Assembly: GCA_024222295.1 (NCBI GenBank)
Contig: JAAEPF010000024.1
Coordinates: 248,001-312,000, forward strand
Source of the DNA: Actinomycetes bacterium
GTDB taxonomy: Bacteria > Actinomycetota > Acidimicrobiia > Acidimicrobiales > Microtrichaceae
Length of the DNA stretch: 64,000 nucleotides
Direction of reading: 5' to 3'
Part shown: positions 17,207 to 51,079 of the stretch, one piece after another
Numbering within the stretch: position 1 is the stretch's first letter
How the letters are laid out: each line of letters begins with the position of its first letter
Program-made: the position numbers and the translations under genes
Notes under the pieces: model-generated
Databases searched by the model: none
What the model was told of the DNA's origin: nothing
The model's input: the letters and a program-made list of their open reading frames with translations, nothing else

Positions 17207-17836
17207 ATGGCCCGGACCCACGTAGTCGACCATCCGCTCGTCCAGCACAAGCTCTCGATCCTTCGCGACGTCGAGACGCCCCACGGCGAGTTTCGCCGCC
17301 TCGCGCGCGAGATCACCTTGCTGGCCGCCTACGAGGCCACAGCGGACCTGCCCACCGAGCCGATCGACGTGCACACGCCCCTTGCGGTCACGGAGGCCCA
17401 GAGGCTCCGGCCGCCACAGCCCGCCGTCGTCGGAATCCTGCGTGCCGGGCTGATCATGGTGGACGCCGTGCTCGAGCTGATCCCCCATGCGGCAGTCGGG
17501 CACCTCGGTATGTACCGGGACCCAGGAACCCACGAGCCGGTCGACTACTACAACAAGCTGCCGGACCGCATCGACGAGCGACCGGTGCTGGTGGTCGATC
17601 CGATGCTCGCCACAGGTGGCTCCGCGGCGCACGCGCTCGACCAGCTGCGCGAGGCGGGAGCGACGGACATCCGCCTGCTCTGCATCGTGGGGTGCCCCGA
17701 AGGGGTTGCAGCGGTGCGCGAGGCACATCCCGACGTTCCGCTGTTCCTGGCAGCGCTCGACGACCGCCTGGATGACCACAAGTACATCGTCCCCGGGCTG
17801 GGTGACGCAGGCGACAGGATCTTCGGGACGCTCTAG
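17207..17836 (+). CDS. upp: Uracil phosphoribosyltransferase
   Basis: The 209 residues match the bacterial Upp length. Visible features are HPLVQHKLSILRD at the N-terminus, LRAGLIMVDAVLELIPHA, the PRPP-binding loop VVDPMLATGGSA (about 124-135) and the uracil-binding C-terminal segment VPGLGDAGDRIFGT. It converts uracil plus PRPP to UMP and so salvages the base released by DeoA acting on uridine. It lies 13 bases after the kinase gene. Its TAG is shared with the stop of the convergent acyltransferase gene in the tetranucleotide CTAG. Confidence 0.97.
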   Translation: MARTHVVDHPLVQHKLSILRDVETPHGEFRRLAREITLLAAYEATADLPTEPIDVHTPLAVTEAQRLRPPQPAVVGILRAGLIMVDAVLELIPHAAVGHLGMYRDPGTHEPVDYYNKLPDRIDERPVLVVDPMLATGGSAAHALDQLREAGATDIRLLCIVGCPEGVAAVREAHPDVPLFLAALDDRLDDHKYIVPGLGDAGDRIFGTL

Positions 17837-18990
17837 CCTGCGCGATGAACGTCGGAGCTGCCGAGCCGGTGGGCGCGAGGCTCGGGATTCCTCACATCGA
17901 CGGGGGTCGTCCTCGGCAGTCTCACAGCGGCGCGGGGCCACAGGGTCGGCCGGCGCCGTGCCGCAAGGTCTTCGGCCCAGCCGAACAGCACGCATGCCGG
18001 AACCAGCAGGAGCACCGTCCAGGCAAAACGCGCGGGTGCTGCCAGGTTGCCGGGGAAGGCGTATGTCATCACGGCCCAGACCGCCACCATGTGCCACAGG
18101 TAGATGGTGAGTGCCCGCGCTGAGATGAACGTCACGGTTGCGCGGACAGCGGGAACCTCAAGGCGTGGCTCGATCCGCTCGCGTAGCCCGACGGCCGACA
18201 CGAGCCAGAACGCCCCCAGCAGGAAGCTGCCCAGCCCGGCCAGTGACTCGAGGCTTCCGGTCTCGTGGAAGGCGAAGAACAGCAAGGCGCCGACGGGTCC
18301 GGTCGCCGCTGCGATGAGCGCCCAGCGCGAGATGGTCCGGTCGCCGGGCAACGCAGCGAGCTTCTTCAGCCAGCGTTCGAGGACTCCGTCATGGTGCAGG
18401 TATCCCAGTGACCAGCAGACGGCCCAGAAGGGAGTGCCACCCAAGCCGATCGGCATCAGCACGATGGTCAGTGCAACGAGGACCGTCCAGTAGCGCCTGG
18501 AATGGGTCAGTTGCATGCGGCGCATCCACCCGCCGACCAGCGACAACAGCAGGTGCATCTGCAGGTACCACAGGGCGATCCAGGTGAACACGATGTCGGA
18601 GTTGGCGTCGCCCGGGCCGATCGGGCCACCGAAGGAGAGAAGCGGCATGACGAAGGAGACCCAGGACAGCGGGTTCACCTCTCCCAGCACGCCCAGGTAG
18701 CCCCACAGCGCCACCATGGCCAGGATGTAGATCCAGTACGGGAACAGGATCCTGCGGAACCGGTCGACCACCACCTGTCTGGTTGGCCGGCGGTCGACCG
18801 ATCCGGCGTACAGCGATCCGGCGATGAAGAACATCAGCGGCATGGCCGTGAAGGCCGTGACCGTCCAGAGGTTGGTCGAGTGGTACAGGACCACCCGGGC
18901 AAGCGCGAACGCACGGAGTGCGTCTAGGTACACGCTGCGCTCGCTGTTTCGCCCCAACAGTCCTGTCCCGGTCGTGCGCCGAACCGCCAA
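17833..18990 (-). CDS. Acyltransferase 3 family membrane protein
   Basis: This 385-residue protein has about ten membrane helices and begins, after a TTG start, with YLDALRAFALARVVLYH (family: R.LrA.A...Vv..H). Family members transfer O-acetyl or other acyl groups to exported sugars or lipids. FPYWIYILAMVALWGYLG and ALTIYLWHMVAVW are typical core helices. No SGNH domain is attached, unlike the second acyltransferase in this window. Its stop is shared with upp in CTAG, and its start lies 23 bases after the HAD gene on the same strand. The TTG choice is moderately secure. Confidence 0.85.
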   Translation of the reverse strand: MAVRRTTGTGLLGRNSERSVYLDALRAFALARVVLYHSTNLWTVTAFTAMPLMFFIAGSLYAGSVDRRPTRQVVVDRFRRILFPYWIYILAMVALWGYLGVLGEVNPLSWVSFVMPLLSFGGPIGPGDANSDIVFTWIALWYLQMHLLLSLVGGWMRRMQLTHSRRYWTVLVALTIVLMPIGLGGTPFWAVCWSLGYLHHDGVLERWLKKLAALPGDRTISRWALIAAATGPVGALLFFAFHETGSLESLAGLGSFLLGAFWLVSAVGLRERIEPRLEVPAVRATVTFISARALTIYLWHMVAVWAVMTYAFPGNLAAPARFAWTVLLLVPACVLFGWAEDLAARRRPTLWPRAAVRLPRTTPVDVRNPEPRAHRLGSSDVHRAG

Positions 18991-23217: not shown

Positions 23218-24024
23218 TCAGGCCCCCGCCACCACCGCGCGGAGCATCCCCGCCAGGCGGGGCGCCGCCTCGGCTCCGGCTGCGAGCACCTCCGTGTGAT
23301 CGAGTTCGGGTTGCAGGCCTGCAGCCAGATTGGTCACGAGCGACACGCCGAACACCTCGGCTCCGAGGTGGCGTGCAGCAATGGCCTCGAGCACAGTGGA
23401 CATGCCCACTACGTCCGCGCCGAGCGAGGCGAGCATCCGGATCTCCGCCGGGGTCTCGAAGCTGCCTCCCAGCAGCCCCGCGTAGACTCCTTCGACCGCC
23501 GAGTCGTCGCTGTTCAGCGCGAGCTCCCTCAGCCGGTGGCTGTAGAGGTTGGTCAGATCCGGGAAACGGGGTCCCATCGACTCGGGCGGCGGGGGCCCGA
23601 CCTGGGGGTTGACGCCGCTCATGTTGATGTGGTCGGTCAGCACGACCGGTGTGCCCACACCGACTTCGGCCCGCAGCGAACCCGCGGCATTGGTGAGCAA
23701 GACGGCCCGGCACCCAGCCAGCACAGAGCATCGCACCGCATGCACGACGGTGTGCGCGTCATGGCCCTCATAGAGGTGTGCGCGGCCGGCGAGCACCAAG
23801 ACCCTGCGACCCTCGAAATCCAAAGCGCTGATCGTGGCGCCGTGGCCCTGCACCGTGGGAGCGGGCACCCCTTCGAGTTCGTCCATCTTGATCTCGCCGC
23901 CGACTTCGCCGATGCTGCGGCCCACATCGGCCCATCCGGAGCCCAGCACGACCGCCACGTCGGCCCCTCCGAGCGCGTCCTGCAGCCGCTGCGAGTCCTG
24001 CTTGGCGAGTTCCCATGGATCCAT
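23218..24024 (-). CDS. Purine-nucleoside phosphorylase (trimeric type)
   Basis: The 268 residues match the low-molecular-weight trimeric PNP class. Motifs are VAVVLGSGWADVG (phosphate loop), VLVLAGRAHLYEGHDAHTVV, AVLLTNAAGSLRAEVGVGTPVVLTDHIN (split here at family consensus TNAAG and L.DHIN), VYAGLLGGSFETPAEIRM and GADVVGMSTVLEAIAARHLG. It phosphorolyses inosine and guanosine to base and ribose-1-phosphate, which the next gene can isomerise. The ATG is preceded by CACAAT with a six-base spacer (24036-24031), the same box and spacing as the OafA-type gene at 49196. Confidence 0.96.
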   Translation of the reverse strand: MDPWELAKQDSQRLQDALGGADVAVVLGSGWADVGRSIGEVGGEIKMDELEGVPAPTVQGHGATISALDFEGRRVLVLAGRAHLYEGHDAHTVVHAVRCSVLAGCRAVLLTNAAGSLRAEVGVGTPVVLTDHINMSGVNPQVGPPPPESMGPRFPDLTNLYSHRLRELALNSDDSAVEGVYAGLLGGSFETPAEIRMLASLGADVVGMSTVLEAIAARHLGAEVFGVSLVTNLAAGLQPELDHTEVLAAGAEAAPRLAGMLRAVVAGA

Positions 24025-24055
24025 CGCGCCATTGTGGCAGTTGGACGGCCATCTG

Positions 24056-24083
24056 TACTCTGGGTCAACTCACAAGGGGCGCA
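24056..24083 (+). promoter_or_regulatory. Promoter and ribosome-binding site of the ligase/Wzz fusion gene
   Basis: TACTCT (24056-24061) is a -10 candidate followed by a leader of about 15 bases. AAGGGG (24073-24078) acts as Shine-Dalgarno five bases before the GTG. It shares a 59-base divergent gap with PNP. Confidence 0.45.
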
Positions 24084-26816
24084 GTGCAGACACTCGAGCC
24101 ATACGTCGAGCCAGAGAGCGGCAAGCCGCCGCGGCGCGGGTCCACTGGCGCGCTCGCTGCCCTCGGCGCCCTGGTCATCGTCGCCACGTCCGTGGCGGCG
24201 GTGGTCACCCGCCTGGGTGTGCTCGTCATCATCGGCGTGGCGATCATCGCGGTCGGTGCGCTGTTCGTGCTGCGACGGGGTTTCGGGTTCGTCCAGCTCG
24301 TCGCCTTCCTCATCCACTTCGAGGGAATCGGCCGCGGTGGCATATCGGTGGGGCGCATCATCTCGGCGACCGCGATCCTGCTGATCGCGTACAAGCTGGT
24401 GGTGGACAAGTGGCGGCCCCCCGCGGTGCCGATGCGCTACTGGTTGCCCCCGGTGCTGGTGATGACGTGGGGTGTCGCCTCCGCGATCTGGGCACCCGAT
24501 GTCGGCCAGTGGTTCGTGGGCGTGGGCGTGTTCGGCCTGGCGTTCGCCTACTTCGCGACCTCTGCACTGCTGATCGATTCGGTCGACCTGATCAAGAAGT
24601 GGATGCGTGCCTACTGGTACGGAGGCATATGTGGTGCGGTTGCGGGCGTGTGGGGCCTGATCCTGGGCTTGCGCGCGTTCGGGTTCAACCGCGACGCCAA
24701 CCTCTTCGGCGTGCTGGCCGCGTCGATGATCCCGCTCACGATCTACTACCGCCGCCAGTCCAAGACCACCACGGAGAAGGTGCTGTACACGGTCGTGCTG
24801 CTGCTCGTGCTGGGTGGTGCGGCCGGCGCCGGGAGCCGATCCGGGGTGATCGGTGCCGCGGTCGCCCTTTTCGCATCGATGGTGTACCGGCCGGGCGTGA
24901 AGGTGAGTCGAAACATCGCCCGTGCGTTCCCGGCCGCGATCATCACCGCGATCATCGCCGTGGGTCTGATCGTGATCAATCCCAACACGCTGATCCGTGG
25001 CACCGACAGCTCGGGCCGGCTCGACTTCTGGAACGTCTCGGTTTCGATGATCCAGGAGAGACCCGTGCTCGGGGTGGGCCTCGGCAACCTCGACGCGCAG
25101 ATCCCGAGCCGAATGCCGATCACCCCCGGCACGACGAAACTCTCCGACGTGCGCGACGAGGTGTCCTCGCACAACACCTACCTGGACATCGCCGGTGACC
25201 TCGGGGTCATCGGACTGGTGATCTGGGCCTCGGCGATCGTGATGACGGTCATCGGCCTGTTGAGACCCCGGTGGAAACAGACCAAGGAGCTGTCTGGCTA
25301 CCTGTTCCTGATGTTCCTGCCGGTGCTCAGCGGCTCGATGTTCCTGTCGCTGATCAACAACAAGCTCGCGTGGTCGCTCATCGGAATCGCCGCCGCGCTC
25401 CAGGTGCCGTCGTGGGGCACGCGCTGGAAGGGCTACTTCGAGCCCTCGCGCGGCGACCCTGCCTCAGGTGAGGAGCAACCAGAGCGCCTCGCGCGCTGGG
25501 ACCTGCGGATCAGCCAGCGATTCCGGATCTGGGTCGTGCTCGGCGCCCTCGCCGGTGCGGTCATCTTCCCGGTGGTCGGATCCAGCGCCCCGACGAACTA
25601 CAGCGCCAGCCGTTCGATAGTGGTGCCGAAACTCGACCTGCCGCCGGGCGTGCCCTATGTGCGCCTCGACATCGACCGGCTGCAGTACGTGCACAACCTG
25701 ATCCTCTCGGATGCCTACGCGTATCAACTCGCCGAGTTGGCCGGTGTCGACATCGATCCGCGGGTGGTGTCCGATGACGTCACGGTGTTCCGCAGCGACG
25801 CCGGTCCGTACATGGACATCGTGTTCAAGAGCACCGACGAGCAGTTGGTCAACCAGGTTGCGCCCCATCTCACCGGTGCGCTCGACGCCATCATCGAGCA
25901 AGGGCGCATCGACTCCGAAGAGACACTCCGCGACGAGCTGCGCCCCCGTGACCCGGGTGAGCAGCGCTACTACACCGGGCCGATGTACCTGCCGGTGGGG
26001 CAGGATGTCGACTTCGGTGTAGAGCCACCGCGGCTAGTGTGGCTGGCGTTCGTTGGCGCGGGTACCGGTGGGCTGTTGGCCATATCGCTGGTGTTGATCA
26101 AGCAGGGCAGTCCGCGGGTCAACAACGACGACGACTTCCCGCACGCGGTCGGCATGCCGTTGTGGACCCATGTCGGGCGGAATGGACGCCGCAACGCGGC
26201 CACGCCGGCGCAGTACGCCCACGTGGCCGTCACGGCGTTCGAGGCAACCGATGGCGAGCGGCTCCCCAACCGCATGCTCCTTGCCGCGCCGCGCCACAGT
26301 CGCTCGGCCCGGGTGCTCTCGATGGGGATCGCGGCCAGCCTTGCGGCGAGCGGGGAACGCGTCCTGCTCGTCGACGGCCAGGTCGAGCGACGGGTCATGT
26401 CGTGGCGTCTCGGTGCGGGCCTCGCGCCGGGCATGAACGACATCGCCCACGGGCGCGCAGCCCTCGGTGACTCGATCCGGCGGGTCCGGCGCTGGCGACT
26501 CCCTCGCCCGGTGCGCAAGTCGTTCCGTGACAACCGCGAGAACCTCCGCTTCATCCCCGCTGGCCGTCCGCGCCGCGGTGAGGAGCCCGCGGTCGACCCC
26601 GCGCTGTTGTCGGATGTCGACGACGACGTGATCATCGTGATGCTCGCACCGCCGCTTCTCGGCACCATCCCGGTGTCGCCGTCGCTGCGTTGGGCGGATG
26701 TCGTTCTCTACAACCTCGTCGAGGGGGAGACTGTCACCTCCGATGCCGAGGATGCGGCGCTGCAAGTGGCCACGTTCGCCCAGGGGCCGAGCGGTGTTGT
26801 CCTCTCGGACGTCTGA
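24084..26816 (+). CDS. Fusion of O-antigen-ligase-like protein, Wzz chain-length domain and degenerate BY-kinase domain
   Basis: This 910-residue protein has three parts. Residues 1-450 are a polytopic O-antigen ligase/polymerase domain with about 11 helices and the typical periplasmic loop ending SSHNTYLDIAGDLG. Residues 475-690 are a Wzz-like domain: one helix (FRIWVVLGALAGAVIFPVVG), an extracytoplasmic helical region, and a second helix with PRLVWLAFVGAGTG. Residues 710-910 resemble the cytoplasmic tyrosine-kinase domain, but the P-loop is replaced by APRHSRSARV and only an A'-like VLLVDGQVE remains. No tyrosine tail is seen. It likely polymerises or ligates surface polysaccharide and sets its length. 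The GTG start follows AAGGGG. Confidence 0.85.
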   Translation: MQTLEPYVEPESGKPPRRGSTGALAALGALVIVATSVAAVVTRLGVLVIIGVAIIAVGALFVLRRGFGFVQLVAFLIHFEGIGRGGISVGRIISATAILLIAYKLVVDKWRPPAVPMRYWLPPVLVMTWGVASAIWAPDVGQWFVGVGVFGLAFAYFATSALLIDSVDLIKKWMRAYWYGGICGAVAGVWGLILGLRAFGFNRDANLFGVLAASMIPLTIYYRRQSKTTTEKVLYTVVLLLVLGGAAGAGSRSGVIGAAVALFASMVYRPGVKVSRNIARAFPAAIITAIIAVGLIVINPNTLIRGTDSSGRLDFWNVSVSMIQERPVLGVGLGNLDAQIPSRMPITPGTTKLSDVRDEVSSHNTYLDIAGDLGVIGLVIWASAIVMTVIGLLRPRWKQTKELSGYLFLMFLPVLSGSMFLSLINNKLAWSLIGIAAALQVPSWGTRWKGYFEPSRGDPASGEEQPERLARWDLRISQRFRIWVVLGALAGAVIFPVVGSSAPTNYSASRSIVVPKLDLPPGVPYVRLDIDRLQYVHNLILSDAYAYQLAELAGVDIDPRVVSDDVTVFRSDAGPYMDIVFKSTDEQLVNQVAPHLTGALDAIIEQGRIDSEETLRDELRPRDPGEQRYYTGPMYLPVGQDVDFGVEPPRLVWLAFVGAGTGGLLAISLVLIKQGSPRVNNDDDFPHAVGMPLWTHVGRNGRRNAATPAQYAHVAVTAFEATDGERLPNRMLLAAPRHSRSARVLSMGIAASLAASGERVLLVDGQVERRVMSWRLGAGLAPGMNDIAHGRAALGDSIRRVRRWRLPRPVRKSFRDNRENLRFIPAGRPRRGEEPAVDPALLSDVDDDVIIVMLAPPLLGTIPVSPSLRWADVVLYNLVEGETVTSDAEDAALQVATFAQGPSGVVLSDV

Positions 26817-26817
26817 C

Positions 26818-27576
26818 GTGGGTTGGATCGACAACCACTGCCATCTGGACGGCGAAGATGATCCGGCAGAGGTTGTGGCAGCCGCTCGCGCGGCAGGCGT
26901 GGAGGCGATGGTATGCGTCGGCGTCACCGTGGAACGCTCGGAGGCCTGCATCCGGTTGGCGCAGCAGTTCGACGACGTGTTCGCCACTGCCGGGGTGCAC
27001 CCCCACGACGCGTCAGGCGGGATCGACGGGCTGGCAGAGCTGTTCGGCCGCGCCGGTGGGGGTGGCGGGCCCGTGGCCGTGGGTGAGTGCGGGCTCGACT
27101 ACCACTACGACAACTCCCCCCGGGACGCCCAGCGCAAGGTGTTCGCACAGCAGATACAGCTGGCGCACGAGTCCGGGCTGCCGCTGGTGATCCACACCCG
27201 GGATGCCTGGGATGACACCTTCGCTACCCTCGACTCCGAGGGGCTACCCGGCCGCACCGTGTTTCACTGCTTCACCGGCGGGCCGGGTGAAGCCGATGCC
27301 GCGCTCGAACGCGGCGCGTTGCTGTCGGTCAGTGGCATTGCCACATTTCCGGGTGCCGTGGAGCTGCGCGAAGCGGTCGCCGGGGCGCCGCTGCAGTCGC
27401 TCATGGTCGAGACCGACTCGCCGTACCTCACCCCGGTTCCACACAGGGGCAGGCCCAATCGACCCGAGTTCGTGCGCCATGTCGGCGAGGAGGTGGCTGC
27501 GCTGAAGGGCGTGGACACAGCAGAAGTGGCCGAGGTGACATCGGCCAACGCCCGGGCGTTCTACGGGATCAGCTGA
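26818..27576 (+). CDS. tatD: TatD family metal-dependent deoxyribonuclease
   Basis: The 252-residue TIM-barrel hydrolase shows the TatD metal motifs: WIDNHCHLDG (HxH), ATAGVHPHDA, AVGECGLDYHYD (catalytic Glu), LVIHTRDAWDD, VFHCFTGGPGEA and VETDSPYLTPVPHRG. Members are 3'-5' exonucleases active on damaged DNA. Start GTG is one base after the previous stop, and the TGA overlaps the ATG of rsmA (TGATG). The order tatD-rsmA-ispE is common in bacteria; here it is inserted in the middle of the polysaccharide locus. Confidence 0.96.
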   Translation: MGWIDNHCHLDGEDDPAEVVAAARAAGVEAMVCVGVTVERSEACIRLAQQFDDVFATAGVHPHDASGGIDGLAELFGRAGGGGGPVAVGECGLDYHYDNSPRDAQRKVFAQQIQLAHESGLPLVIHTRDAWDDTFATLDSEGLPGRTVFHCFTGGPGEADAALERGALLSVSGIATFPGAVELREAVAGAPLQSLMVETDSPYLTPVPHRGRPNRPEFVRHVGEEVAALKGVDTAEVAEVTSANARAFYGIS

Positions 27577-28436
27577 TGCTGGGCGCCACGGAAGTGCGCC
27601 GCCTGCTCGACGAGCACGGGCTCAGTGCCCGCAAGTCGCTCGGCCAGAACTTCGTCACCGACCCCGGCACGCTGCGACGGATCGTCTCGATCGCCGGCAT
27701 CGGTCCCGGCTCTCCGGTGCTGGAGGTGGGTCCGGGCATCGGATGCCTCACCCTCGCACTGGCCGAGGCCGGCGCCTCGGTGACAGCGGTCGAGAAGGAC
27801 CCGACCCTGCTGCCCGTGCTCGACGAGGTGCTGGCGACCTTGCCCGTGTCACAGCGGCCGAACATCGTGCGCGGCGACGCCCTGGAGCTGGACTGGCAGG
27901 ACTTGTTGCAGGGTGACGGCTGGTTCGTCGTAGCCAACCTCCCCTACAACGTGGCGGTTCCGATCATCCTCGGCCTGCTCACCTCGGCGCCGATGGTCGA
28001 CGCGATGTGGGTGATGGTTCAGCTCGAGATGGCGGAGCGCATCTGCGCCCAGCCGGGCGGACGGACCATCGGGGTCCCCACGATCAAGGTCGGCTGGTAT
28101 GCCGACGCGTCGATTGCGATGACTGTGTCGCCCGAGGTGTTCACGCCCCGGCCCCGGGTGCGCTCGGCGGTGGTCGAACTCCGCCGCCGCCGGCCGCCCG
28201 ACGATTCGCTCGAGCCGGCGGTCGTGTTCGATCTCGTCGACACCGCATACCGCCAGAGGCGCAAGATGCTGCGTTCATCGCTCGCGACACTGGTCGGCGG
28301 CGATGGTGCCGGTGAGGTGTGGGCCGGAGCGGGAATCGACCCGACCAGCCGTCCTGAGCAGCTGTCGGTCACGGACTGGTCGCGACTCGCTTCTAGTCTG
28401 TTGCGGTGCCAACGCTCTTCGCCCCGGCGAAACTGA
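27576..28436 (+). CDS. rsmA: 16S rRNA (adenine(1518)-N6/adenine(1519)-N6)-dimethyltransferase
   Basis: The 286-residue KsgA/RsmA methyltransferase shows KSLGQNFVTDPGTLRRIV at the N-terminus, the SAM motif VLEVGPGIGCLTLALAE, acidic motif VTAVEKDPT, the catalytic NLPYNVAVPIIL (NLPYN) and the RNA-binding TPRPRVRSAVVEL. It dimethylates two adjacent adenines in helix 45 during 30S maturation. Its ATG overlaps the tatD stop. Its 3' end overlaps ispE by 31 bases, and the ispE promoter-like box lies inside its coding sequence. Confidence 0.97.
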   Translation: MLGATEVRRLLDEHGLSARKSLGQNFVTDPGTLRRIVSIAGIGPGSPVLEVGPGIGCLTLALAEAGASVTAVEKDPTLLPVLDEVLATLPVSQRPNIVRGDALELDWQDLLQGDGWFVVANLPYNVAVPIILGLLTSAPMVDAMWVMVQLEMAERICAQPGGRTIGVPTIKVGWYADASIAMTVSPEVFTPRPRVRSAVVELRRRRPPDDSLEPAVVFDLVDTAYRQRRKMLRSSLATLVGGDGAGEVWAGAGIDPTSRPEQLSVTDWSRLASSLLRCQRSSPRRN

Positions 28437-29116
28437 CTATCTCGCTGAGGGTCACCGGTGTGCGCCCCGACGGCTTGCACCTGATCGACGCCGAGATGGT
28501 CACACTCGACTTCGGCGACCGCCTCGAAGTGGAGCCTGGCGGGTCGGGCCTCGAGGTCGAGGTGGGCGGGCAGCGGTCAGCGGGCGACGCCAATGATCTC
28601 GTGGTGCGTGCACTGGAACTGACGGGCCGCCGGGCGGGAGTGGTGCTGCACAAGCGGATTCCTGCCGGCGCCGGCCTGGGTGGGGGCAGTTCCGACGCGG
28701 CAGCCGTGCTGCGCTGGGCCGGCTGGTCCGACGAGTCCCGAGCCGTCACCCTCGGAGCTGACGTGCCGTTCTGCCTGCTCGGTGGGCGGGCCCGCGTGAG
28801 GGGCATAGGCGAGGTGGTGGACCCGTTGCCGTTCCGCGAGCAGACAGTCACACTGTTCACGCCGCCGGTTCACTGCTCGACGCCGAGGGTCTATGCGGCG
28901 TGGGACGAGATGGGCGGGCCCAGTGGCGAATACGGCAACGACCTCGAGCCCGCAGCCTTGACCGTGGCGCCGGAGCTGGCGCGCTGGCGCGACGAGTTTG
29001 CGTCCGCGACCGGGGAGTGGCCGCAGTTGGCCGGCAGCGGGTCGACCTGGTGGGTGCGTGGCGCCCATCCGGGCCCCGGGCACGTGGTCGCTCGGGCAAC
29101 CCCGCCGATGCTCTGA
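28406..29116 (+). CDS. ispE: 4-diphosphocytidyl-2-C-methyl-D-erythritol kinase
   Basis: The 236-residue GHMP kinase is shorter than the roughly 280 residues of E. coli IspE. N-terminal FAPAKLTISLRVTGVRPDG (substrate-binding Lys and Asn-like region) and the ATP loop PAGAGLGGGSSDAAAVLR are intact, followed by LGADVPFCLLGG. The C-terminal third is shortened, with LAGSGSTWWVRG as the third GHMP motif. It phosphorylates CDP-ME in the MEP isoprenoid pathway, which also supplies the polyprenyl carrier for the neighbouring polysaccharide genes. GTG start is supported by TAGTCT six bases upstream. Confidence 0.93.
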   Translation: MPTLFAPAKLTISLRVTGVRPDGLHLIDAEMVTLDFGDRLEVEPGGSGLEVEVGGQRSAGDANDLVVRALELTGRRAGVVLHKRIPAGAGLGGGSSDAAAVLRWAGWSDESRAVTLGADVPFCLLGGRARVRGIGEVVDPLPFREQTVTLFTPPVHCSTPRVYAAWDEMGGPSGEYGNDLEPAALTVAPELARWRDEFASATGEWPQLAGSGSTWWVRGAHPGPGHVVARATPPML

Positions 29117-29386: not shown

Positions 29387-30724
29387 ATGACGCCGATGCC
29401 CTATGAAGGTGAGCCGGAGGCGACAGCTGTCGAAGCCGCGCCCACGGAGCGCCGCTCGCTGCGCCTTTCGCGCCGCCAGGTGCTCATCGTCGCGGCCTCG
29501 GCGCTGGTGACCGGTGTCATCGCAGTCGTGTTCTCGCAGCTGAGTCCACCGATCTACGAGACGACCCGCTCGATCATCGTCTACTCGGGCGGCAACGCCA
29601 ACGAGAACGACGTGCTGTCCGCCGCGATCGAGGACATCGTGAAGTCCAAGGGCATGGCAGCCGAGGTGAAGCGCCGCGGGGGATTCGAGGAGTCGATCGA
29701 CGAGATCGACGGCCTCATCGGCACCAGCCGCTCCCCGCTGTCGCCGTACATCGACATCACGGTGTCGAGCCCGGTCAAGGAGCAGTCCGAGGCCGTCAGC
29801 GCCCAGGTGATCCCGTCGCTGCAAGCGGTGTTCGAGTCCAACCAGCGCCAGCTCCCTGTTGAGCAGCGCATCGCCGGTCCGGTCTTCCAGCAGATCTTCG
29901 AGTTCCCGCTGCAGTCCACCACGACGTTCCCGGCATGGTTCGCCGCACTGTTCGGAATGCTCATCGGCGGCCTCGTGCCGTACCTTTTCTTCCTGTTCCG
30001 CAACCTGCGCAAGCCGGTCCTGGCCTCGGCGCAGGACGTGACCCAGGCGATCGACCTGCCGGTACTGGTGAAAGTGCCGCCCATGTCGGGCCGCACCGGC
30101 AACCCGCGCGACTCCGTCGCCGGCGTGATCTCCGCAGTCGAGCGCCTCAGCCTCGACGAGCCAATCCACCGCCTGGTGCTTGTCGGCCCCGACTCCGGGC
30201 CCGACAGGGCGTTGATGGCGCTGGCGCTCGCGAACGTGATTGCCCGCAGCTTCGGCCAGCCCGTTGCCCTTGTCGACGCCGACCTCCAGGCAGGGTCGTT
30301 GACCGAGCTCGTGGGAGCAGGAGACACCGCCGGGTTGTCGGAGTGCCTCTCGGGCCAGCTTGCAGCCGACGCAGCGCTTGTGGACCTCCCCGACACCCGG
30401 ATCCCCAGAGAGCTCGACGGCATGACTGCTCCTGAGGGAATGGTGCGGTTCATCGGCGCCGGGATCGACCGCAGCCGCAACATCCTGCGGATGCGCTCGG
30501 CGCTCGACCGTGTGCTCGATGGCCTGGCGGGCCGCTACGTGGTGATCATCAACGGTCCGCAGATCCCGGGCCCGGTGCCCACCTCACAGATGCTGTCGCT
30601 CGCGGACACGACCCTCATGGTCGTGGTCGAGGGCAAGACCCGCCTCACCGACGCCCGACTCGCCGGAGACGCACTCCGGTCGTTCGCATCAGGGCCATCG
30701 GGCGTGGTCGTGCTGCGCGGGTGA
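29387..30724 (+). CDS. Wzz-type polysaccharide co-polymerase with degenerate BY-kinase-like domain
   Basis: The 445-residue protein has a first membrane helix (QVLIVAASALVTGVIAVVF, about 29-47), an extracytoplasmic Wzz region with YETTRSIIVYSGG, and a second helix (FAALFGMLIGGLVPYLFFLF, about 186-205). A cytoplasmic domain follows that looks like a BY-kinase: VLVGPDSGPDRALMALALAN stands where the P-loop should be but lacks the GxGKS lysine, while Walker A' VALVDADLQAGS is kept. The C-terminus FASGPSGVVVLRG parallels the end of the ligase fusion (FAQGPSGVVLSDV). It probably regulates chain length without kinase activity. TACACT (29334-29339) is a likely -10. Confidence 0.85.
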   Translation: MTPMPYEGEPEATAVEAAPTERRSLRLSRRQVLIVAASALVTGVIAVVFSQLSPPIYETTRSIIVYSGGNANENDVLSAAIEDIVKSKGMAAEVKRRGGFEESIDEIDGLIGTSRSPLSPYIDITVSSPVKEQSEAVSAQVIPSLQAVFESNQRQLPVEQRIAGPVFQQIFEFPLQSTTTFPAWFAALFGMLIGGLVPYLFFLFRNLRKPVLASAQDVTQAIDLPVLVKVPPMSGRTGNPRDSVAGVISAVERLSLDEPIHRLVLVGPDSGPDRALMALALANVIARSFGQPVALVDADLQAGSLTELVGAGDTAGLSECLSGQLAADAALVDLPDTRIPRELDGMTAPEGMVRFIGAGIDRSRNILRMRSALDRVLDGLAGRYVVIINGPQIPGPVPTSQMLSLADTTLMVVVEGKTRLTDARLAGDALRSFASGPSGVVVLRG

Positions 30725-30731
30725 GCCCTGC

Positions 30732-32207
30732 GTGAATGACGAGGCGCGCGTGAACGGCGATGCCCAGAGTCTGGGCACCACCGCCACCCGCGGATTCCTT
30801 TGGGCCAACGTCGGGCTGTTGAGCCGCTTCGGCGCGGCGCTTGTCCTGGCGTCTTTGCTGGTGCGCCAACTGTCCGATGGCGACTACGCGGCGATGGTCG
30901 CGCTGACTGTCGTGATGCTCTACGCCGACACGGCCCTCGACCTCGGCATGGGCGCCGCCCTCGTATACGAGCAGGAGGAAGGCCAGACGCGACGGGTCGA
31001 CGTGGCCTTCAGCGCCAACGTGGCCTTCTCGCTGGTACTCGCTGCACTGGCGGTCCTCGCCGCGCCGTTGATCGCGGTGCTGTTCAACCTCGAGGAGTAC
31101 GTGTCGGCGTTCCGGATGCTCGGACCGCTGATCATGATCTCCGGGCTCAACACAGTGCCGTGGGCGCTGTTCATGCGCGGCATGGCTTACCGGCCCCGCG
31201 CCTATACCGAGATCGCACGCGACGGCTCCCGACTCGTTGTCACACTCGTGCTCGTCTACGGCGGCATGGGCATCTGGGGCGTCGTGTGGGGCTTCATCGC
31301 CTCCAAGGTGATCTGGACCGTGGGCACGTGGGCGCTGACCCGGTTCAGGGCACGGTTCGCGTGGGACGGCGACATCGTGCGCGACCTGTTCAGCTACGCC
31401 TGGAAGATGGCGGGCAACAGGTTCCTCGGCCTGCTCGCGCTCAACGGCGACTACTTCGTGGTTGGCAACCGCACAAGCACCATGGAGCTCTCCCTGTATT
31501 ACCAGGCGTTCCGGCTGCCCGAGGTCGTGATGGGCGGCCAGCTCAACGCGATGTCCGCGGTGCTGTTCCCCATGTACTCGCGCATCCGCTCGAAGGGCAC
31601 CGATGCCCTGCGCGACGCCATGTACAAGGCACTTCGCATCGTCGGGCTGTTCTCGATCCCCGTCGGTGTGGTCATGGCCCTCGCGGCACGTGACGCGATC
31701 ACCGTGATGTTCGGCACGCAGGGAACCGACGCGGTGACCGTGATGCAGGTCATCTCGATCACCGGGTGCATCACCGGGCTGGGTTTCGCGACCGGCGACC
31801 TGCTCTACGCGACCAACCGCCCCGGGCTGCTGATGCGCCTGAACGCGGTGATGGTGCCGCTCATGCTTGCCGCCATGTGGATCGTTGCCGGGAGCCATGG
31901 AATCGTCGGGGTCGCCCTCGTACACCTGGGCACGCAGGCAGTCTTCGTGACGATTCGCCAGCTGATCGTGAACCGCATCATCGGCGCATCGCTGCTGGCG
32001 TGTGTCGCCGCGCTGTGGCCGGGAGTGGCCGTGACCGCGGGAATGTTGCTGTTCGGCCTGCCCGTGCGACTCCTCACCCCCGGGGGCTTCGTGTCCGGGC
32101 TGATGGTGGTCGGCGCGGCCGCCGTGGGCGCACTGGTGGCGCTTGCGCTGTCACCGGCTTCGAGGGCGGAGCTGCGAGATATCCTCGCAAAGATCAAGGG
32201 CGCCTGA
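30732..32207 (+). CDS. Polysaccharide flippase, Wzx/MATE-like (MVF superfamily)
   Basis: The 491-residue membrane protein has 12-14 hydrophobic helices. The opening TRGFLWANVGLLSRFGAALV is typical of Polysacc_synt_3 flippases (…G.lw..l...…), and positively charged loops such as RFRARFAWDGD separate helices. FRLPEVVMGGQLNAMSAVLFPMYSRI (split by family as a conserved central loop) supports this. It would flip undecaprenyl-linked repeat units to the outer leaflet for the ligase/polymerase fusion. It starts seven bases after the Wzz gene and converges with the acyltransferase-like gene, overlapping it by 14 bases. Confidence 0.9.
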   Translation: MNDEARVNGDAQSLGTTATRGFLWANVGLLSRFGAALVLASLLVRQLSDGDYAAMVALTVVMLYADTALDLGMGAALVYEQEEGQTRRVDVAFSANVAFSLVLAALAVLAAPLIAVLFNLEEYVSAFRMLGPLIMISGLNTVPWALFMRGMAYRPRAYTEIARDGSRLVVTLVLVYGGMGIWGVVWGFIASKVIWTVGTWALTRFRARFAWDGDIVRDLFSYAWKMAGNRFLGLLALNGDYFVVGNRTSTMELSLYYQAFRLPEVVMGGQLNAMSAVLFPMYSRIRSKGTDALRDAMYKALRIVGLFSIPVGVVMALAARDAITVMFGTQGTDAVTVMQVISITGCITGLGFATGDLLYATNRPGLLMRLNAVMVPLMLAAMWIVAGSHGIVGVALVHLGTQAVFVTIRQLIVNRIIGASLLACVAALWPGVAVTAGMLLFGLPVRLLTPGGFVSGLMVVGAAAVGALVALALSPASRAELRDILAKIKGA

Positions 32208-33297
32208 GCTTCGAGCGGAGGGCGTCCAGCTGCGGCGCCTGTCGCTTCCAGGTGTTGGCCGCGGCGGCAGCCGCGGTTCCCCTCGGCCCCACCCCGGTGC
32301 GGGCCCTCACGACGCTGCGCTGCGCAGTCGCCCAATCGTCCTTGTAGGACTCGGCGCCGCGCAGCAGGTCGAGCTCGATCATGCCGCTCGAGCGGGCCCA
32401 GCGCAGGACCTCGGCCTTCAGTACCGACCCACTGCCCCTGAAGTCGTGGTCGGTCAGACGGCCGGCCTGGTAGAACGCCGCGCGGTCGTCGGCGATCATC
32501 TCGAGCTCGGACGCGATCACCCGGTCGCCGTCGGTGAGCTCGTGCACCACCACCTCGTCGGCGAGCATGCCGGCTCGTGCCGTGGCCCGGAAACGCTCCC
32601 ACCCGGCCGAGAAGCCCGACTCATCCTCCCAGCGGCTGTCGTGCAGGTCGAACAGCGCGTCCAGTGCGCGGTCGGCCTCCCGGGATGGCACCTTGCGCAC
32701 CTCGAAGCCGGCCTTGGCGAGACGTTTGGCGCCGCGCTTGATGTTGCTGCGCATGCGTCCCGGCAACCTCGCGACGGGGTCCTCCTCCTCGAGGGCCACC
32801 CATGGTGCCGGCACGCGCTCGATCACCTCGGCATCGAGAAGGAACGGCAGCTCGCAGTGCTCGCTCAGCCCGTCGAGGTCGATCACCCGGTCGCCGTCAC
32901 GGAGCCAGCGCCCGACGGCGCCGAGCACCTCGCGGCGGTGCACCGCCAGTGCCACCACGTCCAGGTGGTCGGGGGCCAGCGGACCCTGGCCGAGGCAGCG
33001 CACTCGCTCGACCCGCAGCGGACCGCGCCCGATGGTGTCGATTTCGAAGGCAGCACCCCCGACGAGGGCGCCGTCCTCATCCAGGCAGACGAGGATGGCG
33101 GGTTCAGCACCTGCGGCGTTGTCGACCCACCAGGAGCGCAGGAATGGCGACGGAAGGGCCCCACGGGCCGCAATCCGGTCCCATTGCGCGCCGAGGTCGC
33201 CTAGTCGATCGAGCCGTTGCAGTCGCATGCGCAGCCAGTCTGGCCGCCCCCGGGATGAATAGCCCACTCCGTCGCCCTTGACGGTGGCACCCGTCAC
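32194..33297 (-). CDS. CelD/BioF2-like GNAT acetyltransferase
   Basis: The 367 residues match the Acetyltransf_6 (CelD-like, double GNAT) family. N-terminal half: WDRIAARGALPSPFLRSWW and ILVCLDEDGALVGGAAF. C-terminal half: LPGRMRSNIKRGAKRLAKAG (the typical basic helix), DLHDSRW, VIASELEMIADDRAAFYQAG and LLRGAESYKDDW (family: f..G.e.YK..f). Such proteins occur in cellulose and exopolysaccharide loci, where they probably acylate sugars or lipids. It is the only minus-strand member of this locus. GTG start; a methionine 23 codons downstream is an alternative. Confidence 0.85.
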   Translation of the reverse strand: MTGATVKGDGVGYSSRGRPDWLRMRLQRLDRLGDLGAQWDRIAARGALPSPFLRSWWVDNAAGAEPAILVCLDEDGALVGGAAFEIDTIGRGPLRVERVRCLGQGPLAPDHLDVVALAVHRREVLGAVGRWLRDGDRVIDLDGLSEHCELPFLLDAEVIERVPAPWVALEEEDPVARLPGRMRSNIKRGAKRLAKAGFEVRKVPSREADRALDALFDLHDSRWEDESGFSAGWERFRATARAGMLADEVVVHELTDGDRVIASELEMIADDRAAFYQAGRLTDHDFRGSGSVLKAEVLRWARSSGMIELDLLRGAESYKDDWATAQRSVVRARTGVGPRGTAAAAAANTWKRQAPQLDALRSKLRRP

Positions 33298-33361
33298 AGA
33301 GTTACATAGCTCATACCGAGATCGGTCCCGGCTGGACCGACGGGTGGCTGGTAGGGGCGAG

Positions 33362-34864
33362 ATGCTGAAGATTACCGAGGCGGACGGGGCGCCATTTGGC
33401 GAACCGGTAGTGGGGGATCAGCAGGTGGTGGACCTGCGCGAGGCGAATGCGAGACACAGGGGCTCGCCTCTCCTGGCTGACCCACAGAGGACGATTCCAC
33501 AGCGCGAGCGGCGCGCCGTAGGCCGACTGGTCAAGGACCTCGGCCATGTACTCGATGCGGCTGCGGTCGGAGTCCCGCTCCTGCTCTCCAGCTTCGTGCG
33601 CGACGCCGTCGTTTCGCGTGGCGTGGTGCTGCTGTTCGTCATCGTGGTCACAGCCATGCTCTGGCCAACACACCGCAGGGGCCGCCATCTGATCAGCCCG
33701 AGCGAGGGCCTCATCTCGGTGGTCGCCCGCGTGGGTCTGGCCCCCGTCATGACCTGGGCCCTGCTGGCCGTCGTTCGACTCGGCGAGGGCGCCACGGTCA
33801 ACCGGATGGTCGACATCGTGGCGATCATCCAGATCGTCGTGCTCACCATCCCCCTGATCCTGCTCGGGCGGATCATCAGCTACCGCCTTTCGACGCTGGC
33901 TCGACGCCGTGGCTACGACGTCGAGGACACGCTCGTTCTCGGCTCCGGCCCCACGGGCGTCGAGATCGCCAATGCGATCGAGGACAACCCCGACACCGGG
34001 CTGGTTCCGTGTGGCTTCGTGGACCGCTTCGAGTCCGACTCGACCCTGCCGCTGGTCGGCCGCCCCGAGGACCTGCATGCGATCCTCGCTGCAACCGGTG
34101 TTCGAAACGTGGTCATCGCCTTCGGTGGTGCCGCCGAGGAGGAGCTAGTCGCGATCGTGCGTCGCTGCCACGACGTCGACGTGCAGTTCTACGTGGTGCC
34201 CCGCCTGTTCGAGCTCGGTGTGTGCGCCGGAGAGGTCGGTCACGAGATCGATGGGCTTCCGCTGGTGAAGGTGTCCTGCCCCGGCAACAGCGCCAGGTCC
34301 TGGAGGGCCAAGCGGGCCTTCGACATCGCTGCCGCCTTGATCCTCTTCGTGCTCACCACTCCCGTGTTCGCAGCCTGTGCGCTCGGAGTGAAGCTCACCT
34401 CGCGTGGGCCGGTGTTCTTCCGCCAGGTCCGAGTCGGCATCGGTGGCCGACCGTTCGAGATCCTGAAGTTCCGCACCATGAAGGTCAACGACGACTCCGA
34501 CTCCCAGTGGTCGGTGGACGAGGACGACCGGGTCACAGCCATCGGCAAGTTCCTGCGCCCGTCGCACCTCGACGAGCTGCCACAGCTGCTCAACGTGCTC
34601 AAGGGTGACATGTCGCTGGTCGGCCCCCGGCCGGAGCGTCCGCACTTCGTGGAGCAGTTCTCCGGTGAGATCAACGGCTACGAGCACCGCCACCGCGTGC
34701 CGGTCGGCATCACCGGGTGGGCCCAGGTCAACGGGTACTGGGGTGACACGAGCATCGAGCGACGCGTGCGCCTCGACAACCGCTATATCGAGAACTGGTC
34801 GATGTGGCGTGACCTCGTGATAGCGCTGCGCACCTTCCCGACCCTGTTCGGGAAGCGTCGCTGA
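33362..34864 (+). CDS. Polyprenyl-phosphate sugar-1-phosphate transferase (WcaJ/WbaP type)
   Basis: The 500-residue initiating transferase has four N-terminal helices (about residues 70-180), a Rossmann-like CoA-binding-type middle domain (VLGSGPTGVEIANAIED) and a C-terminal catalytic domain after a fifth helix. Catalytic motifs are WRAKRAFDIAAALIL, EILKFRTMKVND, HLDELPQLLNVLKGDMSLVG, PRPERP and GITGWAQVNGYWGDT. It moves a sugar phosphate from a UDP-sugar to the undecaprenyl carrier, starting each repeat unit. I chose the ATG after GGTAGGGGCG (ribosome-binding site) rather than upstream starts that would overlap the divergent gene. Confidence 0.93.
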   Translation: MLKITEADGAPFGEPVVGDQQVVDLREANARHRGSPLLADPQRTIPQRERRAVGRLVKDLGHVLDAAAVGVPLLLSSFVRDAVVSRGVVLLFVIVVTAMLWPTHRRGRHLISPSEGLISVVARVGLAPVMTWALLAVVRLGEGATVNRMVDIVAIIQIVVLTIPLILLGRIISYRLSTLARRRGYDVEDTLVLGSGPTGVEIANAIEDNPDTGLVPCGFVDRFESDSTLPLVGRPEDLHAILAATGVRNVVIAFGGAAEEELVAIVRRCHDVDVQFYVVPRLFELGVCAGEVGHEIDGLPLVKVSCPGNSARSWRAKRAFDIAAALILFVLTTPVFAACALGVKLTSRGPVFFRQVRVGIGGRPFEILKFRTMKVNDDSDSQWSVDEDDRVTAIGKFLRPSHLDELPQLLNVLKGDMSLVGPRPERPHFVEQFSGEINGYEHRHRVPVGITGWAQVNGYWGDTSIERRVRLDNRYIENWSMWRDLVIALRTFPTLFGKRR

Positions 34865-34890: not shown

Positions 34891-36054
34891 GTGAAGATTG
34901 TCGCCGTCACGTCCCGCTTTCCGCATCCGATGGAACGCGGCGACAAACTGCGGGCGCAGCACCAACTCCGGGAGCTGGCCAGGCACCACGACGTCGCACT
35001 GATCGCCCTGTCGGAGGGACCTGTGCCCGCCGAGCACCTCGATGTGCTCAGCGGTGCCGGAGTGCGCACGCACGTCGTGCAGCGTTCGAGGGCAACGACG
35101 GCATTCGCCGGAGCGCGCGCCGCGTTGCGGATGCCGGTGCAGGTTGCCTACTTCCGCTCCACCGGTGTGGAGACCGAGGTGCGGCGCCTCATCGAGGCGG
35201 AGTCGCCCGATCGCCTCTACTGCCAGCTGATTCGAACAGCGTGGGCCGTCGAGGGTACGGGCGTGCCGGCGGTCATCGACTACCAGGACGCGTTCGCGGC
35301 CGCCATGAAGCGCCGGGCCGCCGGACAGCCCCCGGGTGCGCGTCACGCGTTCGAGTACGAGTCGACCAGGATCGCCGCGGCGGAAGCAGCCGCGTTCGAG
35401 GCGTTCGAACGCCGCGTGGTGATCTCGGAACAGGACCGGCTCTCCCTCGAGGTGCCGGATCGCGACGCGGTCGATGTGTTGCCCAACGGCGTCGACACGT
35501 CCTTCTTCGCACCAGGTGGCGAACCGCCGGCCGATCCGGTCGACATCGCCTTCGTGGGCAACATGGGATACCCCCCGAACGTCCGGGCGGCCCGGATGCT
35601 GGCCGAGGAGATCATGCCTCTGGTGCGCCGCCAGCGGCCGGGCTCGCGCCTGCTGCTGGCTGGGGCCCGGCCATCGCGCAGTGTGCGTGGGCTCGCCGGC
35701 CCACACGTCGAGGTGAGTGGATGGATGCAGGACATCCGCGAGGGATACCGGCGCGCCTCGGTGATGGTGGCGCCGTTGTTCATCGGGTCGGGCCAGCAGA
35801 ACAAGGTCCTCGAGGCAATGGCCATGGGTGTGCCCGTGGTTACCACCGACCTGGTCAACAATGCGATCGGCGCAGAGCCGGGCCATGAGCTGGTCACTGC
35901 CTCGACCGCGCAGGAATTCGCCGACTCGGCGCTGGAGCTGCTGGAGTCGGCCGATCGCCGCGATGCCGTCGCCGAGGCAGGCCTGAAGATGGTGCAGGCC
36001 AGATTCGCCTGGAATGCGGTCGGCGAGCGTCTATCGGGCATCATCGCGTCATGA
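34891..36054 (+). CDS. Family 1/4-type glycosyltransferase (GT-B)
   Basis: The 387-residue GT-B enzyme opens VKIVAVTSRFPHPMERGDKL (nucleotide-fold strand and early loop). Acceptor-side motifs include CQLIRTAWAVEG and VIDYQDAF. The donor domain has VLPNGVDTSFF, IAFVGNMGYPPNVRAA, VEVSGWMQDIREGYRRASVMVAP and GSGQQNKVLEAMAMGVPVVTT with the conserved Glu. It resembles the exosortase-associated sugar transferase family (TIGR03087-like), though no exosortase is in this window. It likely adds a sugar to the lipid-linked unit. The stop overlaps the FkbM start (ATGA). Confidence 0.88.
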   Translation: MKIVAVTSRFPHPMERGDKLRAQHQLRELARHHDVALIALSEGPVPAEHLDVLSGAGVRTHVVQRSRATTAFAGARAALRMPVQVAYFRSTGVETEVRRLIEAESPDRLYCQLIRTAWAVEGTGVPAVIDYQDAFAAAMKRRAAGQPPGARHAFEYESTRIAAAEAAAFEAFERRVVISEQDRLSLEVPDRDAVDVLPNGVDTSFFAPGGEPPADPVDIAFVGNMGYPPNVRAARMLAEEIMPLVRRQRPGSRLLLAGARPSRSVRGLAGPHVEVSGWMQDIREGYRRASVMVAPLFIGSGQQNKVLEAMAMGVPVVTTDLVNNAIGAEPGHELVTASTAQEFADSALELLESADRRDAVAEAGLKMVQARFAWNAVGERLSGIIAS

Positions 36055-49195: not shown

Positions 49196-51079
49196 GTGAC
49201 CAAGACCGTCCCTTCGCGCGCCCACGGGAAGCTGGGCTACCAGCCGTCTCTCGATGGCCTGCGCGCGATCTCGGTGGCGGCGGTGCTGCTCTACCACATG
49301 GATCTGGCGTGGATTCCCGGCGGGTTCCTCGGTGTCGAGGTGTTCTTTGTGGTGTCCGGATTCCTGATCACCGCACTGTTGATCGAGGAGCGCCACCACG
49401 AGGGATCGGTGTCGCTGCGCGGGTTCTGGACACGGCGGGCCAGGCGGCTGCTGCCGGCACTGTACGCGCTGCTGCTGGTCGTACCGGCGGTGACGCTGTT
49501 GTTCTACCGCGACGCCGCGGGGCGCCTCGGCGGCGACGTACTCGCAGCGCTGTTCTACGTGAGCAACTGGTGGCAGATCTTCCTCGACGAGTCCTACTTC
49601 GCGCAGGCGGGCCGCCCACCGGTGCTGCGCCACCTGTGGTCCCTGGCGGTGGAGGAGCAGTTCTACATCCTGTTCCCGGCGTTCTTCGTGTGGCTCCTGT
49701 CGCGTCACGGCCGCAACGCGACCCGAAACGTGCTGATCGTGATCGCCCTTGGCTCAGCCGTCTGGATGGCCGTGCTGTATGTGCCCTTCGAGGACCCGTC
49801 GAGGGTCTACTACGGCACCGACACCCGCTTGTCGGGCCTGTTGCTCGGCGCCGTGCTGGCAGTGGTGTGGACACCGTGGCGCAGTCGGGCGAAGCCGTCG
49901 CGGGCCGCGGGTCCGGCACTGGAGGTGGCCGGCGTGCTGGCGCTGGTGCTGCTGGCCTGGTTCTTCACCCGGGTCAACGAGTTCGACCCGTTCGTGTACC
50001 GCGGCGGCTTCCTGCTTCTCGACCTCGTGTGCATCGTGCTCATCGCGGTGCTGGTGCATCCTGCGGCCCGGCTCTCGAAGTTGCTGGCCATAGCGCCGCT
50101 GGTGTGGCTCGGCGTGCGCTCGTACTCGATCTACCTGTGGCACTGGCCGATCTTCGTGTTCACCCGTCCCGAGCTGGACGTGCCGCTGACCGGGTGGCCG
50201 CTGTTCTTCCTGCGGGTCGGGTTGACGCTCATCGCTGCGGAGCTGTCGTTCCGCCTGGTGGAGCAGCCGATCCGCAATGGGTCGATCAGCAAGGGCGTCG
50301 AGCGTTGGCGGGCGGCCGATGCCGAGCAGCGGGCGCGCATCCAGCAGAAGTGGTTCATCCGGGGCGGTACGCTCGCCGCCGTGGTGCTGCTCGTGGGCAT
50401 CGGCCTGATCGCTGCGGCCACCAGCTCCGACCGTGAACGCCTCGAGCTGGAAGCCGCCGGGGCGATCGGACTCGACGGGCTCACCGAGGAAGAGCTCGCT
50501 GCAGTCGAGGGAGCCACGATCGACACCACGACCACGACCGTGCCGCCGCCCACCGCTGCACCGGCTCCGGGGGAGACCCTGCCGAGCACCACCACGACCC
50601 TGCCGGTCGATGGCAACACTACGGCCACCGACGCCGTGGCCGTCGGGGACTCGGTCATGCTGGGCGCATCCGGGGCGCTGAGCAGCGTGATGCCAGGCAT
50701 CAGGGTCGATGCAAAGGTGTCACGGCAGTTCGACGACCTCGCCAACGCCGCCGCCTGGTACTCGACCTCGGGCAACATGCCCGGCACCGCGGTGGTGCAG
50801 ATCGGCAACAACGGCGTGCCCCAGGAAGACAAGATCGAGTGGATGATCGGCCAGCTCGGTGACCGCAAGGTCATCCTGGTGAACGCCAAGGTTGAGCGGC
50901 CGTGGGAGGCCATCTCCAACGAGCGCACGGCTGCCGCTGCCGCACGTCATGACAACGTGGAACTGGTCGACTGGTACACGCTGGCCAGCGAGCATCCCGA
51001 CTGGTTCGCAGCCGACGGAACCCACCTGCGACCGGCGGGCCAACTCGCGTACGCGCAGGCGATCCGCGAGCATCTCTGA
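49196..51079 (+). CDS. OafA/YrhL-type acyltransferase with C-terminal SGNH domain
   Basis: The 627-residue protein has an acyltransferase-3 membrane domain (YQPSLDGLRAISVAAVLLYH at the start, VEVFFVVSGFLITALLIEE, RHLWSLAVEEQFYILFP) with about 11 helices. A Thr/Pro-rich linker follows (about residues 440-475, with runs of Thr). An extracytoplasmic SGNH hydrolase-like domain begins at about 482 with VAVGDSVMLGASGAL (catalytic Ser in GDSV) and ends with DGTHLRPAGQLAYA (catalytic Asp/His). It O-acetylates or acylates envelope sugars. Start GTG with CACAAT six bases upstream. Confidence 0.92.
   Translation: MTKTVPSRAHGKLGYQPSLDGLRAISVAAVLLYHMDLAWIPGGFLGVEVFFVVSGFLITALLIEERHHEGSVSLRGFWTRRARRLLPALYALLLVVPAVTLLFYRDAAGRLGGDVLAALFYVSNWWQIFLDESYFAQAGRPPVLRHLWSLAVEEQFYILFPAFFVWLLSRHGRNATRNVLIVIALGSAVWMAVLYVPFEDPSRVYYGTDTRLSGLLLGAVLAVVWTPWRSRAKPSRAAGPALEVAGVLALVLLAWFFTRVNEFDPFVYRGGFLLLDLVCIVLIAVLVHPAARLSKLLAIAPLVWLGVRSYSIYLWHWPIFVFTRPELDVPLTGWPLFFLRVGLTLIAAELSFRLVEQPIRNGSISKGVERWRAADAEQRARIQQKWFIRGGTLAAVVLLVGIGLIAAATSSDRERLELEAAGAIGLDGLTEEELAAVEGATIDTTTTTVPPPTAAPAPGETLPSTTTTLPVDGNTTATDAVAVGDSVMLGASGALSSVMPGIRVDAKVSRQFDDLANAAAWYSTSGNMPGTAVVQIGNNGVPQEDKIEWMIGQLGDRKVILVNAKVERPWEAISNERTAAAAARHDNVELVDWYTLASEHPDWFAADGTHLRPAGQLAYAQAIREHL

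Follow-up and report, generated by a model that had tools for sequence, protein, structure and literature searches.

Can a polysaccharide polymerase and the regulator that sets the length of its product be joined naturally in one polypeptide, and what would a kinase-like domain without catalytic residues do in such a chain? This question is raised by a window of 64,000 nucleotides from an Actinomycetes bacterium of the family Microtrichaceae, order Acidimicrobiales (assembly GCA_024222295.1, contig JAAEPF010000024.1, positions 248,001 to 312,000), whose forward strand carries a 910-codon single open reading frame at 24084–26816. An original prediction, made before any database search, had read this gene as a three-module protein combining a Wzy/WaaL-type polymerase or ligase, a Wzz length regulator and a degenerate bacterial tyrosine (BY) kinase. 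We consider it probable that the gene naturally joins a Wzy polymerase to a polysaccharide co-polymerase (PCP) resembling the PCP-2a type, with a pseudokinase domain that would serve as a scaffold in a phosphorylation-free system.

The chain begins with a Wzy_C polymerase half (residues 1–450), followed by a linker (approximately 446–482), a Wzz-type co-polymerase (approximately 483–675) and a BY-pseudokinase (approximately 700–910). The surrounding frame is free of stops from 24015 to 26816, and a stop codon looked for near residues 450–480, as would betray two genes joined by a sequencing error, was not found in it. The GTG at 24084 is the likely start, backed by conservation of a VQT(I/L)(E/D)-like motif at the same place in 17 of the 18 members of our alignment A1; the exception, L051 of genome G022, is the most distant member. 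The Wzy_C domain itself (residues 238–382; 24795–25229) was recognised by Pfam scan (PF04932, E 3.6e-17, 63 bits against a curated cut-off of 31.7), and all 18 members match this family at E <= 0.01. Hydropathy averaged over A1 resolves a pair of membrane segments in the Wzz-type part (25530–26108), around residues 493 and 663 with approximately 150 extracytoplasmic residues between them; the number of segments in the Wzy half is not resolved by the scan. The linker is probably cytoplasmic because residues 425–483, ahead of the membrane pair, are basic (mean 9.6 lysines plus arginines over A1); in other genomes of the 18-member alignment the linker reaches roughly 100 residues.

The kinase-like part (26181–26813) is clear when the family is searched as a profile and weak when a single sequence is scanned, TIGR01007 giving only E 0.0041 on the fusion. 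The 18-member profile retrieved from the PDB the structures of BceF (6z0p, 1.5e-13, model positions 743–933), Wzc (7nhr, 1.1e-9, model positions 674–829) and CapAB (3bfv, 5.1e-8), and 9 of the 18 fusions match TIGR01005, a family of proteins with Wzz plus kinase, at best with 9.3e-12. The fusion thus has what characterises a PCP, namely an extracytoplasmic domain between two membrane segments, together with similarity to Wzz-kinase proteins. Foldseek, run on low-confidence models of the fusion and of a free paralogue described below, placed Wzc first for both in loose fits (root-mean-square deviation >13 in every Wzc row), a result used only in so far as it accords with the sequence profiles. 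The three predicted modules are accordingly present in one chain, Wzy_C by Pfam and the Wzz and kinase parts by family profile against the PDB.

The predicted loss of the P-loop and of the tyrosine tail was borne out across the family and extends further. Neither the GK[ST] motif of Walker A nor its P-loop lysine occurs in any fusion (0/18), no tyrosine cluster is present at the C-terminus of the 18 fusions, and the Walker B aspartate is likewise missing (0/18); in the DxD of Walker A', the first aspartate (D764) is kept in 18/18 and the second in 3/18. The free Wzz-BY-pseudokinase paralogue encoded in the same locus, here called PCP2, has no P-loop lysine either (0/23) and reads DAD at Walker A' in 23/23. 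Its Walker B position holds aspartate in four of 23 sequences (G013, G022, G025 and G032) and asparagine in 19, as if the kinase were decaying stepwise. A genuine BY-kinase was looked for elsewhere in the bacterium's own genome (97% complete) and none was found over the cut-off; the five sub-threshold matches to TIGR01007 we take to be proteins of the ParA, Mrp and CpaE/TadZ types. The features that characterise BY pseudokinase PCP-2 proteins in the available text of PMC12004946, namely similarity to BY-kinases, absence of the catalytic motifs and a place within or beside a PCP of a Wzx/Wzy pathway, are all found here, and assignment of the fused domain as a BY pseudokinase is supported by the residues it has lost.

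In contrast to these lost residues, every member (18/18) keeps R252, R312 and H363 in the Wzy half. A histidine is important in WaaL. Arginine residues matter in Wzy proteins, according to the passages available from PMC12004945. Selection on the modules was estimated as the ratio of nonsynonymous to synonymous substitution rates (dN/dS) in nine close pairs, among which genomes are shared and dS is often high. Values ran from 0.017 to 0.342 for Wzy, from 0.061 to 0.464 for the Wzz part and from 0.115 to 0.451 for the pseudokinase in eight of nine pairs (G015/G016 being saturated); all modules are under purifying selection, well below 1, and in 5/8 pairs the pseudokinase shows the weakest constraint of the three.

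Is the fusion real, or were two genes joined by an error of sequencing or assembly? Separate, overlapping genes do exist in two genomes of the family, G001 and G013. Against this stand 22 of 33 family genomes, the bacterium's own included, in which the frame is intact and single (G000, G002, G004, G005, G007–G012, G015, G016, G018–G020, G022, G024 and G026–G030); among them are a genome assembled as a single contig (G005) and one homologue that shares 56% identity across 910 residues. An artefact is vanishingly improbable on this evidence and is rejected: the fusion is real. Identity to the window fusion ranges from 23 to 56% across aligned members. In four further genomes the gene is cut at contig ends (G003, G017, G025 and G031, the last yielding residues 9–589 alone) and in one, G021, it is frameshifted, bringing the fusion-bearing genomes to 27/33 when broken copies are counted; G032 has a C-terminal fragment only. 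The G021 locus (L050) is peculiar in that the frames of the fusion, ispE, PCP2, wzx, priming transferase and glycosyltransferase are all in pieces, and such shared damage makes an assembly error likelier than decay.

The survey for fusions covered Actinomycetota. Samples of 298, 345 and 396 genomes at the levels of order, class and phylum, which overlap, gave 10, 8 and 3 full-length matches listed respectively, all within the family; the profile searches scored the top two candidates per genome. Twenty regions outside the family, picked from the matches listed in these samples for long open frames or strong matches, were searched with family profiles for independent fusions, and none had both modules in one frame (0/20). 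A tblastn search of a plasmid collection gave no match. On these sequence comparisons the fusion is a family trait, with none outside it among the matches listed at those three levels.

PCP2 (29387–30724, forward strand) starts 2.6 kb downstream of the fusion and shares 26% identity with its C-terminal half; the ATG start is assigned from a conserved MTPM, and analyses were run from 29396. It is itself a Wzz-pseudokinase by profile searches, and Foldseek related its model (pLDDT 63.2, with the extracytoplasmic part mostly at 70–90) to Wzc and KpsE. It was found in 26 of the 27 fusion-bearing genomes: in the window and 22 others by direct comparison, in G029 by profile, and in G008 and G012 solely by weak matches of a kind that was expected; the exception, G010, is 81% complete. 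In G022 the fusion and PCP2 lie on different contigs, and in G019 the PCP2 frame (L003, 11289–12587) shifts near its 3' end, the remainder matching in another frame that directly follows. Identity to the window PCP2 is 42–82%, compared with 23–56% for the fusion in a partly different set of genomes. At E <= 1e-20 the PCP2 profile matched 5/148 genomes of the order, all in the family; confinement of PCP2 to the family was nevertheless rejected, as the separate PCP of G311, from another family, matches the profile at 2.1e-48. The original prediction also held that fusion would fix polymerase and length control in a 1:1 ratio. This does not follow, because a free Wzz-pseudokinase paralogue is encoded in the same locus; the published complex of such proteins has a ratio of approximately 1:8.

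How the fusion arose was addressed with trees of the Wzy and PCP parts, both of which contain several long branches, the PCP tree being midpoint-rooted. The two trees agree in placing G013, with its separate genes, beside the fused G022 and G025, while the other fused genomes make up one group apart from these three (support 100/100 for Wzy and 100/99 for PCP); PCP2 and the fused PCP halves fall in separate clades. Either one fusion was followed by a split in G013 or two fusions took place. Neither G001 nor G311 falls within the fused groups of the Wzy tree. G311, which belongs to another family of the same order, is the nearest outsider among the matches listed and keeps wzy and PCP as separate genes. 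In G001, G311 and G013, the three cases with separate genes, wzy precedes PCP; on the inferred starts the two overlap by 14 bases in G013 and by 4 in each of the other genomes. The PCPs adjoining wzy in G001 and G311 may be PCP2-like and not direct forerunners of the fused half, because they are placed on the PCP2 side of the PCP tree.

On the reading that we favour, the priming transferase and glycosyltransferases of the locus would make lipid-linked repeat units, which Wzx would flip and the Wzy half would join outside the membrane, while chain length would be set by a co-polymerase formed from the attached Wzz half and free PCP2. As both PCPs lack the residues required of a BY-kinase, the pseudokinase would be an assembly scaffold and not a phosphorylation switch, and the tethered pair would work without tyrosine phosphorylation. 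The scaffold role is proposed by analogy with EcpK, a BY pseudokinase described as important for exopolysaccharide and itself a proposed scaffold (PMC12004946, available passages). WzyE and WzzE are reported to form a complex in which a WzzE octamer encloses one WzyE in its lumen, approximately 1:8 and 9.6 to 1 by dot blot (PMC10030265, in the text available), and Wzy has been suggested to occupy the same place in Wzc (PMC8285477, likewise in part). We tentatively raise the possibility of a mixed ring, in which one Wzy-PCP chain would be the founding subunit joined by several PCP2 through matching Wzz and pseudokinase parts; the tethered polymerase would then sit in the lumen, and the ratio of fusion to PCP2 product would set both stoichiometry and chain length. 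The arrangement is attractive because eight polymerases, as in a homo-octamer of the fusion, would hardly fit the lumen, and because a free PCP is encoded alongside.

Several observations weigh against the favoured reading of the fusion. At the sequence level the Wzz homology is weak: the Pfam family for Wzz (PF02706) has no match in the window fusion (P0001) or in any of the 18 members, and PCP2 reaches 19.4 bits against its cut-off of 25.5. The AlphaFold model of the fusion, built on a four-row alignment, has a pLDDT of 46.1 and is unable to support a Wzy fold. Two of the 33 family genomes, as said, have separate genes, and three (G006, G014 and G023) have no match to the fusion; G023 is 95% complete, suggesting loss or another pathway there. 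Our confidence was also lowered slightly for the position of the separate PCPs of G001 and G311 in the PCP tree. The best NCBIfam name for the polymerase half is TIGR03097, a putative O-glycosylation ligase linked to PEP-CTERM/exosortase, at 37.4 bits against a cut-off of 188.1, and this naming, far below the cut-off, holds in 18/18 members. Lastly, pseudokinase dN/dS lies above that of the Wzy half in 7/8 pairs.

The NCBIfam name speaks for a rival view of the N-terminal half, as a WaaL-like or protein O-glycosylation ligase beside a different Wzy that polymerises, and so do the Pfam text for Wzy_C ('O-Antigen ligase') and a second Wzy_C protein in the genome, on contig 25. This second gene, however, has a weakly Wzz-like neighbour that lacks a kinase part (E 1.9e-4 by the PCP2 profile), and together (L072 8015–10515, G000:C25) they probably make up a conventional pair. 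Polymerase is favoured because the fusion's locus includes Wzx and a Bac_transf priming enzyme and because neither LpxC nor an exosortase was found in the 97% complete genome: LpxC, looked for as the sign of the lipid A acceptor of a WaaL, with a control that responded in 4/14 genomes, and exosortase (PF09721) with one that responded in only 1/14. Of the two terms in the original 'ligase/polymerase', polymerase is the likelier, the ligase being distinctly less likely in our judgement. Of two further proposals that concern the co-polymerase, one would make the fused Wzz half a mere membrane anchor or stabiliser of Wzy, PCP2 alone regulating length while the fused pseudokinase drifts; the higher identity among PCP2 sequences and the looser constraint on the fused pseudokinase than on Wzy speak for it, but that domain is still under purifying selection wherever dN/dS could be computed and both PCPs persist together in 26/27 genomes, and we think it unlikely. 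The other has the two PCPs competing for the polymerase and so producing two chain-length modes, as described for WzzB and WzzpHS-2 in Shigella (PMC12004945, available passages). Two paralogous PCPs of separate clades beside one Wzy in one locus would suit competition, but one of them is covalently tied to Wzy and not freely exchangeable, which makes this doubtful too.

The remaining genes of the locus were assigned mainly by Pfam. Three housekeeping genes lie stably between the fusion and PCP2 (26818–29116) in the window and 16 genomes, all on the forward strand: a tatD-type DNase (26818–27576, PF01026, scanned from 26698, with a GTG start predicted from the sequence), an rsmA/ksgA-type rRNA dimethylase (27576–28436, PF00398) and a GHMP kinase (28406–29116, PF00288) that we take to be ispE. 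Beyond PCP2, in a conserved position, lies a Wzx-type flippase (30732–32207, forward, PF13440 and PF01943), followed by a reverse-strand GNAT/FemAB-like acyltransferase (32194–33297, PF13480), a forward priming phosphoglycosyl transferase (frame 33278–34864, PF02397 Bac_transf) and a forward glycosyltransferase (34891–36054, PF13692). The reversed gene runs into the ends of both wzx and the priming transferase frame, and its position is kept in other family genomes. The order fusion, tatD, rsmA, ispE, PCP2, wzx is found on a single contig in 16 genomes besides the window, with the reversed GNAT gene and the priming transferase following wzx in 13/16 and a contig end reached in the other three. 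Membrane proteins of acyltransferase-3 type, at 17833–18990 (reverse strand, by Pfam) and 49196–51079 (forward strand, by sequence judgement only), could modify the polysaccharide.

In comparison with known systems, these are familiar parts joined in a new way. CapB of Staphylococcus is an active kinase. The kinase-like part of the fusion aligns with the CapA/CapB structure (PCP-2b, PDB 3bfv) at the 5.1e-8 given above, CapA and CapB being separate proteins in the available text of PMC12004946. Wzc, a PCP-2a with a BY-kinase (PDB 7nhr, 3la6), likewise has two membrane segments, an extracytoplasmic Wzz part and a cytoplasmic BY-kinase-like domain in one chain; the fusion differs from it in the Wzy placed in front, the small extracytoplasmic part of approximately 150 residues and the lack of P-loop lysine, Walker B aspartate and tyrosine tail. 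EcpK/EpsV of Myxococcus and HfsB/HfsA of Caulobacter also have a kinase-dead BY-kinase-like domain serving a Wzx/Wzy pathway. The PCP-pseudokinase half of the architecture is not new, because single-chain PCP-pseudokinase variants are already known (Cuthbertson et al., as cited in PMC12004946); for all of these the passages available from that paper mention no fusion to Wzy, whereas here two pseudokinase PCPs share one locus. In the enterobacterial common antigen system WzyE and WzzE also act as one complex, but as separate proteins at approximately 1:8, compared with one chain and a free PCP here (PMC10030265, in part). No natural Wzy-Wzz fusion was found among the literature matches listed, which comprised titles, abstract starts and passages with subscription papers mostly outside; uses of 'fused', 'fusion' or 'single polypeptide' in the text available from PMC7310880, PMC12004945, PMC4758666 and PMC12220298 do not concern a Wzy-Wzz protein.

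Few data exist on the number of PCP subunits around Wzy and on the position of Wzy among them, the passages available from PMC10030265 describing one complex of approximately 1:8 and low-resolution reconstructions. The family described here provides a conserved natural tether, in which the two halves cannot become separated and the linker and the free paralogue can each be altered singly. It would add an actinobacterial lineage, with both PCPs of its locus devoid of the kinase residues, to the range of co-polymerases that are independent of phosphorylation, and a mixed ring, if true, would be a phosphorylation-free answer to the problem of keeping Wzy and its regulator together.

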